DNA from: a virus
Virus record (IMG/VR): IMGVR_UViG_3300032092_000135
Span: 1-33,381 of that record
Length of the DNA: 33,381 nucleotides
Direction: 5' to 3' (one strand)
In this document: positions 6,139-27,181 of the stretch, piece by piece
How positions within the stretch are numbered: the first letter of the stretch is position 1
Layout of the letters: each line of letters begins with the position of its first letter
Position numbers and translations under genes: made by a program
The notes under the pieces: model-generated
What the model saw: the letters and a program-made list of their open reading frames with translations, nothing else
What the model was told of the DNA's origin: nothing
Databases searched by the model: none

Positions 6139-7338
6139 TTATCTAAAAGTATACAATCCTTTGTTACTAACCTTTAATTCATTCAAGGCGAAGTATCTTA
6201 ATGCGTCTATCGCATGGTTGTATAAATCTGTTGGCTGACCTGTTAGTGTGCCATCTTTTTCTGTTCTGTATTTGTATGTCATAACTTCTTTACCAATTAT
6301 ATCTTCGGCTACGAAGTTAATCTTATATCGCTTCAATATATCTATACTATTGTTAATACTATCTTTTCCTTTGTTAGCACCTTTAATCATTCGCCATCCA
6401 TCCCTGTATAATTCTTCAATGCTTTTTGGTTCTGCACTATCTGCTATGATTGTAATGTGTTGAGGAACATTGAGTTGTCGCATCTTGGCACTAATGTCTT
6501 GATTCGTTAAGCCTCTTTCATAAATCAATGTTTGTACATAGAGTTGCCCTTCGTGTTTCCTTACCTCAACTAATGCAGTCGGGTCAATAGAATAACCAAA
6601 GTCCAAGCCGTAACCTAGTAATTCGCCTTGTAATGATTCACAGGCTTCAAAGTTATTGAATATCAAGCCTTCAATCGTACCCCATTCTCCTATACCATAA
6701 ACATTCCACAACGCAGGGTCTGTCTTTTTTAATAGTTCAATTTCAAGGATAACAGATTCTTCTAGGAATGGATTGTCTTTGTAACTGCTGACTATGACAT
6801 CAATATCATTTTCAGTATATCTTCTAACATCTTCTAGTTCTGTTTTTATGAAATGGTTTGGTGATGATGGGTTCAATGCTAGGAATATAGTTCCTGTCGT
6901 TCTAAATAGTAATTGTTGCCATTCTAGTTTGTTAATCTCGTTGGCTTCATCTATGAACAGATGGTTTCTTTTCCTACCTCTTAACTTTGTTTCTTGGTCA
7001 ACTGAAAAGAATTCAACTATCCTGTTGTTATACTTAAATTCAAAGTTGGATTTGTTGTATTCAATGTGATTGTGTAAGCCTGTTGATTCTAATATTTCAA
7101 TAAAATCCCTTAATGTTGAACTACGAAGGGATGGTAAAAATTTACGGACAATACTGAATGTTCCTTTATTATCAAATTGATTGCCTATTCTACCTGTCAA
7201 TAACCATACTACTGCTATTTGACAGATGGAATATGATTTAGTGCTACGAGTACCGCCTCTGTTGATTCTTATTTTCTTTGTTGATAGGGCATTCTTTTCG
7301 TAGACTTCACTTCCTTTTATGACAAGGTTATTGCTCAC
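6139..7338 (-). CDS. terL: Terminase large subunit
   Basis: A 399-residue packaging motor. The Walker A loop is GGTRSTKS at residues 28-35 and the Walker B strand is LFIDE at 127-131. The coupling segment ALNPSSPNHF lies near 154-163. The C-terminal RNase H-like nuclease carries acidic residues at D246 (GLDFGYS), D300 (IIADSAEPK) and D378 (NHAIDALRYF). Length and domain order match ordinary TerL proteins that cut and pump phage DNA into proheads. The start overlaps the small-subunit gene by 11 nt. The enzyme follows directly after the putative DNA-modification cassette, so modified DNA would be its substrate if that hypothesis holds. Confidence 0.95.
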   Translation of the reverse strand: MSNNLVIKGSEVYEKNALSTKKIRINRGGTRSTKSYSICQIAVVWLLTGRIGNQFDNKGTFSIVRKFLPSLRSSTLRDFIEILESTGLHNHIEYNKSNFEFKYNNRIVEFFSVDQETKLRGRKRNHLFIDEANEINKLEWQQLLFRTTGTIFLALNPSSPNHFIKTELEDVRRYTENDIDVIVSSYKDNPFLEESVILEIELLKKTDPALWNVYGIGEWGTIEGLIFNNFEACESLQGELLGYGLDFGYSIDPTALVEVRKHEGQLYVQTLIYERGLTNQDISAKMRQLNVPQHITIIADSAEPKSIEELYRDGWRMIKGANKGKDSINNSIDILKRYKINFVAEDIIGKEVMTYKYRTEKDGTLTGQPTDLYNHAIDALRYFALNELKVSNKGLYTFR

Positions 7339-18728: not shown

Positions 18729-18749
18729 AGGGGGGTTATTCGCCCCCCT
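18729..18749 (-). terminator. GC-rich hairpin after the DUF932 gene
   Basis: AGGGGGG-TTATTCG-CCCCCCT makes a 7-bp stem, almost all G-C, with a 7-nt loop. On the minus strand the right end is followed by TTTAATTTAATC, a weak T-tract. It lies 6 nt past the stop of the DUF932 gene and 14 nt before the next ATG. A partial terminator or attenuator that separates the two genes is likely. Confidence 0.6.
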
Positions 18750-20497: not shown

Positions 20498-20947
20498 TTA
20501 GTCAATTATTGTTATTGTATCTACTTCTGTTGGTTGTGCTTCCCTTTGTTTTTCTTCTAACAATTCATTTAAGCCAATTTCAACATCTTTGTAAAATTCT
20601 TGTTCATCAAATTCAACATCACAAGAATTCAGTTCAACTTGATTGCGATAATTTAATTCGAAATCTGCTGAATCAGTATCGGCTGATGTGTATTCAGAAT
20701 AAGATAGGTTTTCAATAACACTTAACACTTCTTCAAGTGTAAATCGTTGGTCGGTAAAGTTTTCAACGACAGGTGCGTTATCAAATACTTGCCCTAGTTC
20801 ATCAACACATTGGTTGCGTAAATTAATAAGTAATGAACGCACATCATCTTTTGTGTGTAAAGAACCTGTGGATTCACTAACTTTCAACATAATGTTGTTA
20901 ATTGCTGATTCCATTGTAGCGATTGTTTGGATTTTTAAAGTTTCCAT
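20498..20947 (-). CDS. Acidic hypothetical protein, first gene after the noncoding region
   Basis: A 149-residue protein rich in Glu and Asp, especially in the C-terminal half (DVEFDEQEFYKDVEIGLNEL). It has a helical N-terminus (ESAINNIMLKVSE) and no family I recognise. It is the first gene after the 690-bp noncoding region, so it is likely the first early product. Strong negative charge makes a DNA-mimic or inhibitor of a host nucleic-acid protein conceivable, but nothing more specific can be said. Confidence 0.6.
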   Translation of the reverse strand: METLKIQTIATMESAINNIMLKVSESTGSLHTKDDVRSLLINLRNQCVDELGQVFDNAPVVENFTDQRFTLEEVLSVIENLSYSEYTSADTDSADFELNYRNQVELNSCDVEFDEQEFYKDVEIGLNELLEEKQREAQPTEVDTITIID

Positions 20948-20966
20948 ATTGTTTTTTCAGAGATTA

Positions 20967-21436
20967 TAGTGGTGACTCCACTTTTAGCGATGATGGAATG
21001 ACTTGAACATTCAGGTAGCCTGCTACACATCACCAAACCTTTTTTCGTTATGAACAACTTCCAATGAAGGATTACCATTGTTCGACCTTCGCACACCCAT
21101 ACCACTTGCATTGATGGATTAACTTACCAAAGTGTTCCATTGTGTGGTTATACAACTAAATTGTTTATTCATAGCAGTTTCTTGGTTATCGTCCCTGTGG
21201 TTCTATGATTCATTGTATATCGCTAGACTGAGAATGTGTTACCTGTCCTATTCAAGTTTTCTATTGCCCTGTTCTTATTTCATTTTGTGTAGTGGCTTAC
21301 TGCCCTGGGATGATGATTAGGCTAGTAGCGAATAGAATTGACTGGATGGGATTCGCTTTAATTAGGTACTTCACTTATACTGAGTTTTTACAACTGATTG
21401 GGTGAATTGTCAATTGGTTATGGTGGCCACAACCCG
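20967..21436 (-). ncRNA. Candidate large structured noncoding RNA (~470 nt)
   Basis: No credible coding frame exists here on either strand. The segment folds into many local helices. 21416-21434 is an 8-bp hairpin. 21391-21416 pairs CAACTGA with TCAATTG. 21327-21357 has a 7-bp perfect stem (AGCGAAT/ATTCGCT). 21169-21208 has a 6-bp stem. 21052-21083 has GAACAA/TTGTTC enclosing CTTC/GAAG. 20989-21034 is a compact three-way junction. In three helices the odd pair is G-U on the minus strand but A-C on the plus strand, which points to a leftward transcript. Family unknown; comparison with large phage RNAs such as GOLLD or ROOL would be worthwhile. Confidence 0.5.
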
Positions 21437-21475
21437 AATCCGTATTTAAAAGAACTACCACAATATTACAACATA

Positions 21476-21500
21476 ATTATAATATACCAAAATAAATTTA
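21476..21500 (-). promoter_or_regulatory. AT-rich promoter-like stretch upstream of the noncoding RNA
   Basis: The minus strand reads TATTTTGGTATATTATAAT. It includes a TATAAT match (21476-21481) and TATTTTG (21488-21494), the latter one base short of the Bacteroidota -7 consensus TAnnTTTG. It lies 40-60 bp before the first helix of the RNA candidate. No convincing -33/-35 partner was found, so this is a suggestion only. It could also be the unwinding part of an origin. Confidence 0.3.
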
Positions 21501-21549: not shown

Positions 21550-21612
21550 GGCTGTTTTTAGCCTGTTTTTAGGCTATTTTTGGGGGTTTTTAGGGGGTTT
21601 TTTATAGGGGGG
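21550..21612. repeat. Five phased 11-bp repeats with G-runs (possible origin)
   Basis: Units at 21550 (GGCTGTTTTTA), 21561 (GCCTGTTTTTA), 21572 (GGCTATTTTTG), 21583 (GGGGTTTTTAG) and 21594 (GGGGTTTTTTA) follow without gaps, then TAGGGGGG. Each carries a T-tract in the same phase, so the DNA is probably curved. Runs of five or six G could form a quadruplex on the plus strand. The array is followed to the left by a very AT-rich stretch (21435-21500). The pattern is shared with the region upstream of dnaB. Confidence 0.55.
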
Positions 21613-21613
21613 T

Positions 21614-21636
21614 TATGCTGCCCTGTTGAGCATAAT
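21614..21636. other. 7-bp inverted repeat after the 83-residue gene
   Basis: TTATGCT (21614-21620) and AGCATAA (21630-21636) are perfectly complementary around a 9-nt loop. It sits 4 nt past the stop of the gene at 21641. On the minus strand it is followed by C and A runs rather than T, so a standard intrinsic terminator is unlikely. Confidence 0.35.
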
Positions 21637-21640
21637 TCGT

Positions 21641-21892
21641 TCAACTGTCATCCTCATCCATATCACTTTGTAAGTGTAATATTTTATCCCTCAATGAATC
21701 GTAATCGCCACGAATGTATATTGTAGTTTGGTCTTGAAATGTAAGGATTTGTATATCAGGCAATAATTCTTGCAAATAATATATTTCATCAAGCCTTATC
21801 ATCCTTCTAGCGAAATCGTATTGGATGTCAAAGCCTAAATCCTGCCAATTAATTGTCCTGTCTTTTAATAAGACTTCAATTTCTAGCCACAT
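21641..21892 (-). CDS. Small acidic hypothetical protein
   Basis: An 83-residue protein (MWLEIEVLLKDRTINWQDL) with alternating short strands and helices and an acidic tail ending SDMDEDDS. No family recognised. It starts 1 nt after the metallophosphoesterase stop and is the last gene before the 690-bp noncoding region. It may be a partner of that enzyme, judged only from adjacency. Confidence 0.6.
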   Translation of the reverse strand: MWLEIEVLLKDRTINWQDLGFDIQYDFARRMIRLDEIYYLQELLPDIQILTFQDQTTIYIRGDYDSLRDKILHLQSDMDEDDS

Positions 21893-24602: not shown

Positions 24603-25196
24603 CTAATATGGTTTTTTATAACGATTGCCTTGATATCTTTCACTATAAGGTCTAGTATCTTCTAACTCGCCATTGCCTAAATTAATAGCAGTCCTATATT
24701 GATTGCTTGTAGGCCATATAGCAGTTATATCACTTCCGGGATTTAAGTATTCAGGATATGTTTCACTATTCGCAGTAAGGTAATTAATTGTTCGTTCAGC
24801 ATACCATTCTGCGTAACCTTGATAATATTTGCTAATACTTTGTAATTCAGCGTATGTAGGTTGCTCACTATTCTCACTTGTTTTCTTTAATACTCCTTTA
24901 TTAACGAACTTGTATTGCATAGCCATTGGTAACTCTCCTAATACATAGTTAAATAATGTATCAGTTAAGAAATCATCAAGTAATGTTTTGTATTTAGCGT
25001 TTCCAACCAAAGTGATATCTCCTGTGCTAATTAAATTTAAAATCTTATTGTATAAAGCACTACCACATAATGAATGGATATACCTATCCTGTGTCATTTT
25101 TATAATCTGTGTTAGATTTTTTAAATCTATGTTATTTGAAGCAATCGTAAAATCTTTAAAAGACTGCTCACTAATCATTAAAATATTCGCGCTCAT
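24603..25196 (-). CDS. Head-tail adaptor-like protein (DUF6712-type, tentative)
   Basis: A 197-residue, largely helical protein. Residues 30-55 (KMTQDRYIHSLCGSALYNKI) and 75-100 (LLDDFLTDTLFNYVLGELPM) give a bundle, followed by VNKGVLKKTSENSEQP and another helix (ISKYYQGYAEWYAERTINYL). I associate this layout (QDRYIxPLxGxxLY..., VNKGvv.k.se) with the DUF6712-like connectors of Bacteroidota phages. It begins with an ATGA overlap of the portal stop, the typical place for the first head-completion protein. Confidence 0.65.
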   Translation of the reverse strand: MSANILMISEQSFKDFTIASNNIDLKNLTQIIKMTQDRYIHSLCGSALYNKILNLISTGDITLVGNAKYKTLLDDFLTDTLFNYVLGELPMAMQYKFVNKGVLKKTSENSEQPTYAELQSISKYYQGYAEWYAERTINYLTANSETYPEYLNPGSDITAIWPTSNQYRTAINLGNGELEDTRPYSERYQGNRYKKPY

Positions 25197-27181
25197 CGTG
25201 ATGTTTTTTCAATTACAACATTTCGTTTCCATTCGTGTCTGCAATATGGTGTAGTAACTCCTGTGTTTGGATTTGTATACCATCCACCACAAAGTTGAAA
25301 TACAGAATATCCTAATTGGTCAGTTATGTTTTGGATTTCTTCCCTAGTGAAATATAACTTACTACCATAAAGTTTTTGACATAATGGTCTGCTCTCTGTT
25401 AAAGGCTTTGGAACATTAGGTCTTTCCTCATAACTATATAGAATCTTGTATGATGTGATAGGAGTTAATTTTCTAATCGCTGAATCGCCAATTTTAGTTA
25501 CTGACCTTGTAATTGTACCATCCCTGCTAATCTTTTCTTTAATAACCCCATCATCAAGTAATGTATTTAATCTATCGGTTACTACATTTTTACTTACACC
25601 TGATTTTTTTGCAATATCTTCAATCGTTGCGGTTGGATTGCCTTTAATAGCAGCCACAATATTTTCCTGTACTGCGTTCAATGTGTATTCAGCAAAATCT
25701 TGATGTCTGTTAAATTCATCCATATCGCTAAATAACATTCTATCTTCCTGTAATGCTATAAAGTTTTCTTGTGGTAAACCTTTGCCTTCAAATAATGCTA
25801 TAATTTCATCATCATTTTTCCCGTGACTGCATGAAACATGCATAGTTTCTGTTGGAGTAACAGGTTCAACGGCTACATCTTCAACTTTTGGCATCAATCC
25901 TACTAAACTTCTTAACTCATCTGTGTTCATATTTTCCAATACTTTCTGTAAAAGTGTAGGATTTAATGAATTAAGTGAATTAATTAGGTTTTGACTAGAA
26001 TCAGTTTCTTGTTTTTCAATCATTGGCAAACTCAACTTCTCTCTAATCTCATCTTGTGTCATATTAGAACTGATGATAGCCTCGCCGAATTGGAATGAAA
26101 TTGGTTCTGTCTTGTTTAATAACAATTCTGCCGTTACATCATTGAAAGAATATAGGTAATTGATAACTTGTTCTATCTCCTTTTGCTTGGTATTGATGTA
26201 GGTATTTTGAAACAACTCACTAGCCTCACGCAATTCTGCCCTTCCACCTAATTGCCCTTCTGTTTTAATACCAAATAGCATAGGACTTGTAACCTTATGA
26301 CCGCTAAAAATTTCCTGTTGAACTGTCTTATTCAAAAGGTCAAAGTGCTTGTCAAGTTCAGTACCGCTTAAATCGATTATAGATGGCTCATTTTCCTTGC
26401 TATCGTTGAACGCTAACATAAACTTACCCGCATTCTTTGAGCCGCTAAATTTGTCTTTAAATTGCTTTTCAATCCTGTTTTCTTCTTCCTCGCTAACTCG
26501 CCCACCATTTAGGTTAATAAGTTTAGAACTGAACATTCCATTATTGATACTATTCAAATGGTATTCCCCAATACAAATATCTAGTTCAATATATGAAATA
26601 GCACCCCTATAATCAGGAAGTGAATAAATATTACATCCTGCTCTATATTCTTTGAAATATAGAATTTGACTTCCCTTTCTATTGTTATCATCAAATCTTG
26701 GGTATTCTAAATAGTTAGGTCTAGGGTTTACTTGTCCGTTCTTAATCCAATCATCAGCCACATAATAGCAATTATTGATAGAATTAGTTCTAACCTTGTA
26801 ATAATCTAAATGATATAGTTCAGCAATCTCTCCTGTTCCTTTGCTCCAAATAACTTGTAAATAGTAACCACCGAATATTGATAAGTCGGTAGCCATCTTT
26901 TTAGTTATGTCTGTAAGGCTTTCTCCTTTGGTATTAACCTTATCTAAAATTGTATAGGCTTTTGCCTTTTGCATTTCATCTTCTGAAATAGCATCCCATC
27001 CATTTCCGCAGATATAATCTACTTTACCTGTTATAATTGCATTATGCTTTGCACTATTGTTGTATAAACGCAATAGATAATCAGGGTAATCATTTTTTTC
27101 GCCATAGTAAATCCAATCTTTGCCTTTCACTTCTTTATAAACTGGCAATGGAACTTGGTCAAACTTTAAGAACTTAATCAT
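25193..27181 (-). CDS. Portal protein with appended winged-helix and Cys/His C-terminal region
   Basis: A 662-residue protein. Residues 1-390 look like a portal: DYPDYLLRLYNNSAKHNAIITGKVDYICGNG in pattern, ISYIELDICIGEYHLN stem/crown helices, and TSPMLFGIKTEGQLGGRAELREASELF, a conserved portal element. Residues ~503-572 form a winged helix-turn-helix (NPTATIEDIAKKSGVSKNVV, DGVIKEKISRDG). Residues 575-655 contain Cys601, Cys631, Cys647 and His649 (PYCRHEW), a possible metal site seen in minor head proteins. The combination is unusual. The portal is the DNA gate; the added parts may bind DNA or other head proteins. ATGA overlaps link both neighbours. Confidence 0.8.
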   Translation of the reverse strand: MIKFLKFDQVPLPVYKEVKGKDWIYYGEKNDYPDYLLRLYNNSAKHNAIITGKVDYICGNGWDAISEDEMQKAKAYTILDKVNTKGESLTDITKKMATDLSIFGGYYLQVIWSKGTGEIAELYHLDYYKVRTNSINNCYYVADDWIKNGQVNPRPNYLEYPRFDDNNRKGSQILYFKEYRAGCNIYSLPDYRGAISYIELDICIGEYHLNSINNGMFSSKLINLNGGRVSEEEENRIEKQFKDKFSGSKNAGKFMLAFNDSKENEPSIIDLSGTELDKHFDLLNKTVQQEIFSGHKVTSPMLFGIKTEGQLGGRAELREASELFQNTYINTKQKEIEQVINYLYSFNDVTAELLLNKTEPISFQFGEAIISSNMTQDEIREKLSLPMIEKQETDSSQNLINSLNSLNPTLLQKVLENMNTDELRSLVGLMPKVEDVAVEPVTPTETMHVSCSHGKNDDEIIALFEGKGLPQENFIALQEDRMLFSDMDEFNRHQDFAEYTLNAVQENIVAAIKGNPTATIEDIAKKSGVSKNVVTDRLNTLLDDGVIKEKISRDGTITRSVTKIGDSAIRKLTPITSYKILYSYEERPNVPKPLTESRPLCQKLYGSKLYFTREEIQNITDQLGYSVFQLCGGWYTNPNTGVTTPYCRHEWKRNVVIEKTSR

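Follow-up and report, generated by a model that had tools for sequence, protein, structure and literature searches.

The window, by which we mean the whole stretch of 33,381 nucleotides (33 kb) that we analyzed, belongs to a tailed phage and carries nearly all of its genes on the minus strand. As well as the portal and terminase genes, it contains genes for an endolysin-type peptidase and a metallophosphoesterase. We infer from the portal, whose closest named relative is in Nonlabens phage P12024S (a flavobacterial phage, ~30% identity), that the host is probably a member of the Bacteroidota. The portal of the window also has, at its C terminus (residues 502-548), an additional winged helix-turn-helix (PF13412), which is unusual for a portal. 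Between an 83-aa gene and a 149-aa gene (p149), ~690 nt are free of genes, at the border of the late and early gene blocks (Table 1). The original prediction placed a large, structured, leftward RNA here, in ~470 nt without a gene at the head of the early genes, and this description of the setting is sound: the only notable ORF is one of 58 aa that is broken in relatives, and “head of the early genes” is reasonable given that genes encoding DUF932, an ERF annealing protein, a YqaJ exonuclease and a DnaB helicase lie to the left, i.e., downstream.

Table 1. Features of the RNA locus and neighboring genes, with window coordinates; paired strands of a helix are separated by a slash.
Feature	Position	Strand	Remarks
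Terminase gene	6139-7338		
p149, acidic 149-aa protein	20498-20947	minus	Present in all RNA carriers
P8 hairpin AGTGG-AGTCA-CCACT	20968-20982	minus	Element of the downstream gene's leader (probable)
Large structured RNA, ~469 nt, multi-domain fold P1-P7	20988-21456	minus	Alignments, covariation count, RNAalifold, homologues in L001-L005 and L046
tRNA-like element without anticodon arm	20988-21034	minus	Compensatory changes; T-loop invariant in all seven sequences
P6 hairpin GAACAAT/GTTGTTC	21052-21083	minus	Three double-change pairs, 100% of cells paired
Central junction	21092-21238	minus	P3 enclosing P4, P4b and P5
P3	21238-21232/21098-21092	minus	Double changes in 3 of 7 pairs
P4	21219-21212/21156-21149	minus	Enclosed by P3
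P4b	21208-21203/21174-21169	minus	Double changes in 4 of 6 pairs
P5	21148-21144/21105-21101	minus	Double changes in 4 of 5 pairs
P2 domain	21259-21337	minus	TTCTATT/AATAGAA (21337-21331/21265-21259), double changes in L001 and L046
5' domain, closed by P1	21349-21441	minus	P1 21441-21435/21355-21349, compensatory changes in L001
P1a hairpin, within 5' domain	21434-21427/21423-21416	minus	Compensatory changes in L001
P1b, within 5' domain	21415-21411/21364-21360	minus	Compensatory changes in L001
P1c, within 5' domain	21406-21402/21374-21370	minus	Compensatory changes in L001
boxA-like element AGTTCTTTTAAA	21445-21456	minus	Predicted RNA 5' end
Bacteroidota-type promoter TTTG - 19 nt - TAATATTG	21461-21491	minus	Same place in L002-L005
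83-aa gene	21641-21892		
Portal gene	25193-27181	minus	

Using the 149-aa protein as a query, we recovered five phage contigs (L001-L005) in which the intergenic region aligns along its whole length with that of the window. A search guided by the phosphoesterase gave 74 further phage contigs, one of which (L046) contains a diverged copy of the RNA with 56% identity to the window, detected (E 5e-41) by an nhmmer profile built from the other six sequences. The known carriers are the window and these six contigs, and our sample is limited in that all seven sequences come from one phage group, with two of them divergent from the rest. No copy is present in seven relatives with similar flanking genes (L040, L041, L042, L044, L045, L047 and L048), and a DNA similarity search of 50,697 phage records found no match for the window or L046. 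Core-motif patterns run against viral and genome contigs returned the same phages plus chance matches in coding sequence (L013 was such a match inside a coding gene), and another pattern found L046 again (as L120), with no new member gained. In two samples of 395 Bacteroidota genomes each, our covariance model, R1, identified nothing but P8-type hairpins, and a search of 33 phage records gave the known carriers alone. In Nonlabens phage P12024S, the phosphoesterase gene is not flanked by a gap of this kind, and the phage contains neither a boxA nor an R1 match.

Identity across the locus is uneven. The RNA of the window is 94-97% identical to that of L005, where the compared genes reach 78-89%, and only 75-80% identical to that of L001, where the genes reach 83-93%; this mismatch can be read as pointing to mosaic evolution, with recombination around the RNA. 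Two further features of the neighborhood were noted. Upstream of the RNA promoter, region 21550-21640 holds three plus-strand G runs (GGGGG/GGGGG/GGGGGG) with T-rich spacers between them, as well as a TAGCCT/AGGCTA hairpin that can be read as a terminator on the plus strand, all retained, with indels, in L003-L005. A perfect G6/C6 hairpin directly follows the DUF932 gene, just before the next start codon (window position 18748, minus strand), and is conserved in relatives (L001:4100, L003:7202).

To model the fold, we listed helices available to each of the first six sequences and took those with compensatory changes first, giving 98 base pairs in 17 helices, with covariation tested on a sequence-only MAFFT alignment of all seven sequences. 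Compensatory double changes occur in 33 of the 98 pairs, compared with 8.6 +/- 2.3 in shuffles (0 of 500 come close), and 96.5% of alignment cells form standard pairs. When partners were slid by 1-3 columns, paired cells fell to 34-44% and double-change pairs to 1-8. The 3' domain has 100% of its cells paired and 11 double-change pairs, and L046, although it played no part in the choice of helices, has 55 of 57 standard pairs in the 3' half and one A-C. Support is best for P4b, P5, P6 and the D-like arm described below; for example, one P4b pair is G-C, A-U or U-A depending on the phage. Without a given structure, RNAalifold run on the minus strand recovers most of the model helices; its covariation term is -6.46 (favorable) there vs. 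+1.36 on the plus strand. A lack of covariation in related phages had been named as what would refute a functional leftward structured RNA; the covariation is present and, with the pairing in L046 and the minus-only RNAalifold term, supports such an RNA. Plain folding energy is no better than that of shuffles (z 0.32 minus, 0.37 plus), so our claim is a comparative one and does not draw on energy. As to the strand bias originally put forward, of G-U pairs on the minus strand where the plus strand would have A-C, the 98 model pairs in the window include seven G-U and no A-C on the minus strand. This count is weak evidence alone, because G-U was permitted when the helices were selected and because a naive helix count on both strands did not separate them. 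This locus contains a conserved, folded RNA of ~470 nt on the minus strand that was not previously catalogued; in the absence of expression data, its transcription, processing and function are inferred only.

All the helices named in the original prediction exist: the 8-bp hairpin is P1a, the 7-bp perfect long-range stem is P1, and the three-way junction forms the 3' end (21034-20989). P1c is retained in L046, by eye, as TTTAAC/GTTAAA. The interior of P2 is poorly conserved and partly missing in L046, which also lacks half of P5. The loop of P4b holds a conserved core, ACGATAACCAAG, the interior of P6 is the conserved GGNAATCCTTNANTGGAA, and an invariant GCGAAGGTC precedes P6. An ACCAAG/TTTGGT pseudoknot, attractive in six sequences, is not claimed (TTTGGT is missing in L046), and a pairing of the T-loop with ACTTGAA is broken in the same contig.

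The junction at the 3' end is tRNA-like, with an acceptor, a D-like arm and a T-arm. The 7-bp acceptor-like stem (21034-21028/20995-20989) reads GGUGAUG/CAUCAUC in the window and GAUAGUG/CACUAUC in L046. A single U (U8, 21027) separates it from a 4-bp D-like arm (21026-21015), whose loop, CAGG, is invariant and whose stem occurs as GUAG/CUAC, GCAG/CUGC, GCCG/CGGC and CCAA/UUGG. After two nucleotides comes a 5-bp T-arm, GAAUG-UUCAAGU-CAUUC (21012-20996), with a 7-nt loop that is closed by G-C and fits the T-loop consensus UUCRANY; as in tRNA, the 3' strand of the arm continues straight into the acceptor. Substitutions on both sides affect all four D-like pairs and two acceptor pairs, and the T-stems of L001 and L046 have one extra nucleotide; the 7+5-bp stack and the UUCRANY loop are kept in all seven sequences, with the stems varying by compensation. 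The element meets our criterion for a tRNA-like fold, i.e., a 7-bp acceptor stacked gap-free on a 5-bp T-stem with a UUCRANY loop and G-C closure. It does not meet that for a canonical tRNA, in that neither ARAGORN nor the Rfam tRNA model matches it, the anticodon arm is absent, and the acceptor is followed by G-CUA, with no CCA. An acceptor/T stack of 7+5 bp with a T-loop is the minimal substrate known to be accepted by bacterial RNase P, and cleavage before 21034, although inferred, is therefore a reasonable prediction.

P8-type hairpins also occur before other genes, being found just before the DUF932 ATG in five phages that lack the RNA (L040, L044, L045, L047 and L048) and, as AAAGTGCGGTGTCAGCACTATAATCACTGAC, ahead of host-gene start codons in some ten Bacteroidota genomes. 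Judging from this distribution, P8 is probably part of the 149-aa gene's leader and not of the RNA proper. With P8 as a separate leader element, the tRNA-like element falls exactly on the border between RNA and mRNA. We found neither a leftward terminator nor a leftward sigma-70-type promoter between the RNA and p149. The limits first proposed for the RNA, 20967-21436, need revision at both ends: the 5' end is most likely at 21456, 20 nt further upstream, and the hairpin at 20982-20968 is probably outside the RNA proper. The P8-type element is not in Rfam 15. DUF805 RNA (RF03081) is also a short GUGGAG...ACCAC hairpin before a start codon, but the match is weak (17.8 bits) and so far under the gathering score of 51.1 that P8 is not assignable to it. 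In the Bacteroidota genomes (L153-L156, L160-L164, L166 and L167), AAAGTGCGGTGTCAGCACTATAATCACTGAC precedes start codons by 6-9 nt, and the products of the genes concerned often look like signal-peptide proteins, and our search gave 13 hits vs. 2 for a reversed-pattern control. Its loop, GTCA(G), is complementary to a downstream (C)TGAC, which suggests a putative H-type pseudoknot at translation starts.

At the opposite end of the RNA, TTTG-N19-TAATATTG fits the Bacteroidota primary promoter, and the -7 box is TATATTTG in L001 and TATATTGC in L046. The flavobacterial -7 consensus is TAnnTTTG, from -12 to -5 (PMC9723704). At the usual promoter spacing, transcription is predicted to start at ~21456, and the RNA would begin directly with AGUUCUUUUAAA, the counterpart of which in relatives is AGUUCUUUGAAA or AGCUCUUUGAAA. 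The boxA-like element found here (AGTTCTTTGAAA or AGCTCTTTGAAA in relatives) is the single match in the window with both strands searched, occurs once per RNA-bearing locus, and was not found in the seven relatives lacking the RNA. In three of the Bacteroidota genomes examined (L139, L142/L151 and L145), AGTTCTTTGACA is located 113-173 nt before the 23S rRNA, i.e., at the position of the rrn boxA. The phage element meets what we asked of a boxA, a sequence of the host group located upstream in the transcript, by sequence match only; NusB-S10 binding and antitermination are inferred, as is the transcription start, with the promoter and boxA matches themselves being observed. RNAalifold pairs the boxA core UCUUUG with an invariant CGAAGG near 21091 (inside GCGAAGG), and the conservation of boxA may therefore have another cause, its sequence being kept for folding as well or instead.

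The gene p149 lies directly after the RNA in every carrier, with 36% protein identity in L046. In the seven relatives that lack the RNA, p149 is also absent, although genes from both sides (p83; p62, p60 or DUF932) are kept. The RNA and p149 are genetically linked, in that they are present or absent together. The protein contains 33 D+E vs. 10 K+R, matches no Pfam or PHROG family, and has an uninformative predicted fold (pTM 0.40) with no Foldseek match at E<=0.001; our search of 395 Bacteroidota genomes found no p149 other than one marginal match broken by stops. This linkage, the boxA, the promoter and the tRNA-like nature of the three-way junction were not foreseen in the original prediction.

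We favor, with a probability of roughly one half, a reading in which the RNA is made on one transcript with the early operon, is released by a cut at the tRNA-like element, and from then on works in trans as a stable molecule. Host RNA polymerase would start leftward at TTTG-N19-TAATATTG early in infection, and the 5'-terminal boxA would probably recruit Nus factors (NusB and S10), which would let the polymerase cross 470 untranslated nucleotides without being stopped by Rho, as happens in rRNA operons. The RNA would fold into its multi-domain structure with the tRNA-like element at the end, and host tRNA-processing enzymes, most likely RNase P, would cut before 21034, separating the RNA from the early mRNA, whose own leader would then begin with the P8 hairpin. 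The released RNA would then act in trans as a stable structured RNA while infection is still early, possibly with the 149-aa protein. In favor of this reading are the covariation and RNAalifold results, the distribution of the boxA and its likeness to the rRNA boxA, the lack of an identified leftward terminator, the acceptor/T stack kept in all seven sequences, the location of the tRNA-like element on the RNA/mRNA border, and the linkage to p149; against it stand the absence of expression data, of CCA and of a match to tRNA models, the possible pairing of the boxA core within the RNA, the small sample from a single phage group, and the missing parts of P5 and P2 in L046. Antitermination, cleavage and action in trans are all inferred. 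We propose more tentatively, at somewhat less than an even chance, that a stable phage RNA of a new class copies the rRNA maturation route (boxA and RNase P release) for trans control of the host or of defences, with or without p149.

The RNA could instead remain unreleased, with boxA and the folded RNA forming a cis-acting antitermination or regulatory leader of the early operon, much like nut or put sites or as riboswitch-like control of p149. This is the main rival and a real possibility, albeit one that we do not favor. In every carrier, the RNA immediately precedes p149 and the early genes in the same orientation, boxA is among the features that define known antitermination leaders, and the lack of an identified promoter or terminator between RNA and gene fits a leader as well. 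However, this RNA greatly exceeds known nut, put or EAR elements in size and gives no sign of two alternative folds or of an expression platform, and a tRNA-like element ahead of the gene's own leader suggests separation.

The strict co-occurrence of the RNA and p149 between conserved flanking genes, and a conservation of the RNA between the window and L005 above that of any gene compared, would suit a two-part accessory cassette, either an RNA-protein complex or an RNA-based control pair, directed against host defences or other phages. We consider this unlikely: the strongly acidic composition of p149 is unusual for an RNA binder, the protein has no recognizable fold, and the linkage may be mere neighborhood. 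A cassette overlaps with the released RNA that we favor and does not exclude it. That the region is a DNA-level element, such as a replication origin or packaging site, with inverted repeats that merely resemble RNA helices is very improbable: its intergenic location at a gene-block boundary would fit, but long-range asymmetric helices, G-U intermediates, a T-loop and a one-strand covariation term are not expected of one. A misread coding region can be set aside almost entirely, since the 58-aa ORF overlapping the 3' domain (20935-21111, minus strand), the longest on that strand, is broken in relatives, with 31 aa left in L001 and 16 in L046, and the helix changes are compensatory.

The proposed Infernal comparison with Rfam identified no known family: across the whole window, none of the Rfam 15 families, including GOLLD, ROOL and OLE, scored above its gathering threshold, and at E<=10 the window RNA and L046 gave only weak, unrelated hits. 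There was no Rfam match to group I introns or other ribozymes, and no tmRNA match with either ARAGORN or Rfam. We found no description of this RNA in Rfam or in the literature searched. It is a new family of large structured phage RNA, of the same sort as GOLLD and ROOL and by test a member of neither; the comparison with these two made at the outset holds as an analogy, but there is no model match even at E<=10. Only a handful of large structured RNAs, including GOLLD and ROOL, have come from phages so far, and what they do is not yet known. The compact RNA described here can be approached experimentally through its likely promoter, its boxA, its candidate processing element and the gene linked to it, R1 is usable for finding relatives, and our findings suggest that phages may borrow rRNA-type antitermination and tRNA processing from the host to make a stable RNA of their own.

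ROOL and GOLLD are large, ornate noncoding RNAs of phages and prophages, with no known function and often near tRNA genes (PMC12286853). A homo-oligomeric RNA nanocage is a mark of membership for both. Our RNA resembles them as a large, ornate, phage-encoded noncoding RNA, but has no sequence or covariance-model similarity to them, is smaller (~470 nt vs. 659 nt for the studied ROOL and often >800 for GOLLD), and differs in its own boxA, its built-in tRNA-like 3' element and its position at the head of an early operon. Transcripts of rRNA operons, with their boxA and spacer tRNAs, are likewise boxA-led, untranslated and highly structured, with, by inference, a tRNA-type fold at a processing border, and the boxA of L002-L005 and L046 is identical to the rRNA-operon boxA at 11 of 12 positions; unlike them, this RNA is phage-borne and non-ribosomal, and its tRNA-like element is not a tRNA. 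As in the mascRNA/menRNA type, a tRNA-like element stands after a long noncoding RNA, whose 3' end would be made by an RNase P cut before that element; the phage element differs in lacking an anticodon arm altogether, and its host is bacterial. Lambda nut and HK022 put leaders share with our locus a boxA or structured RNA heading a phage early transcript, whereas the RNA described here is much larger and has a tRNA-like end, with no boxB recognized and no antitermination protein identified. To our knowledge, the combination of a boxA, a large fold and a tRNA-like end is new.
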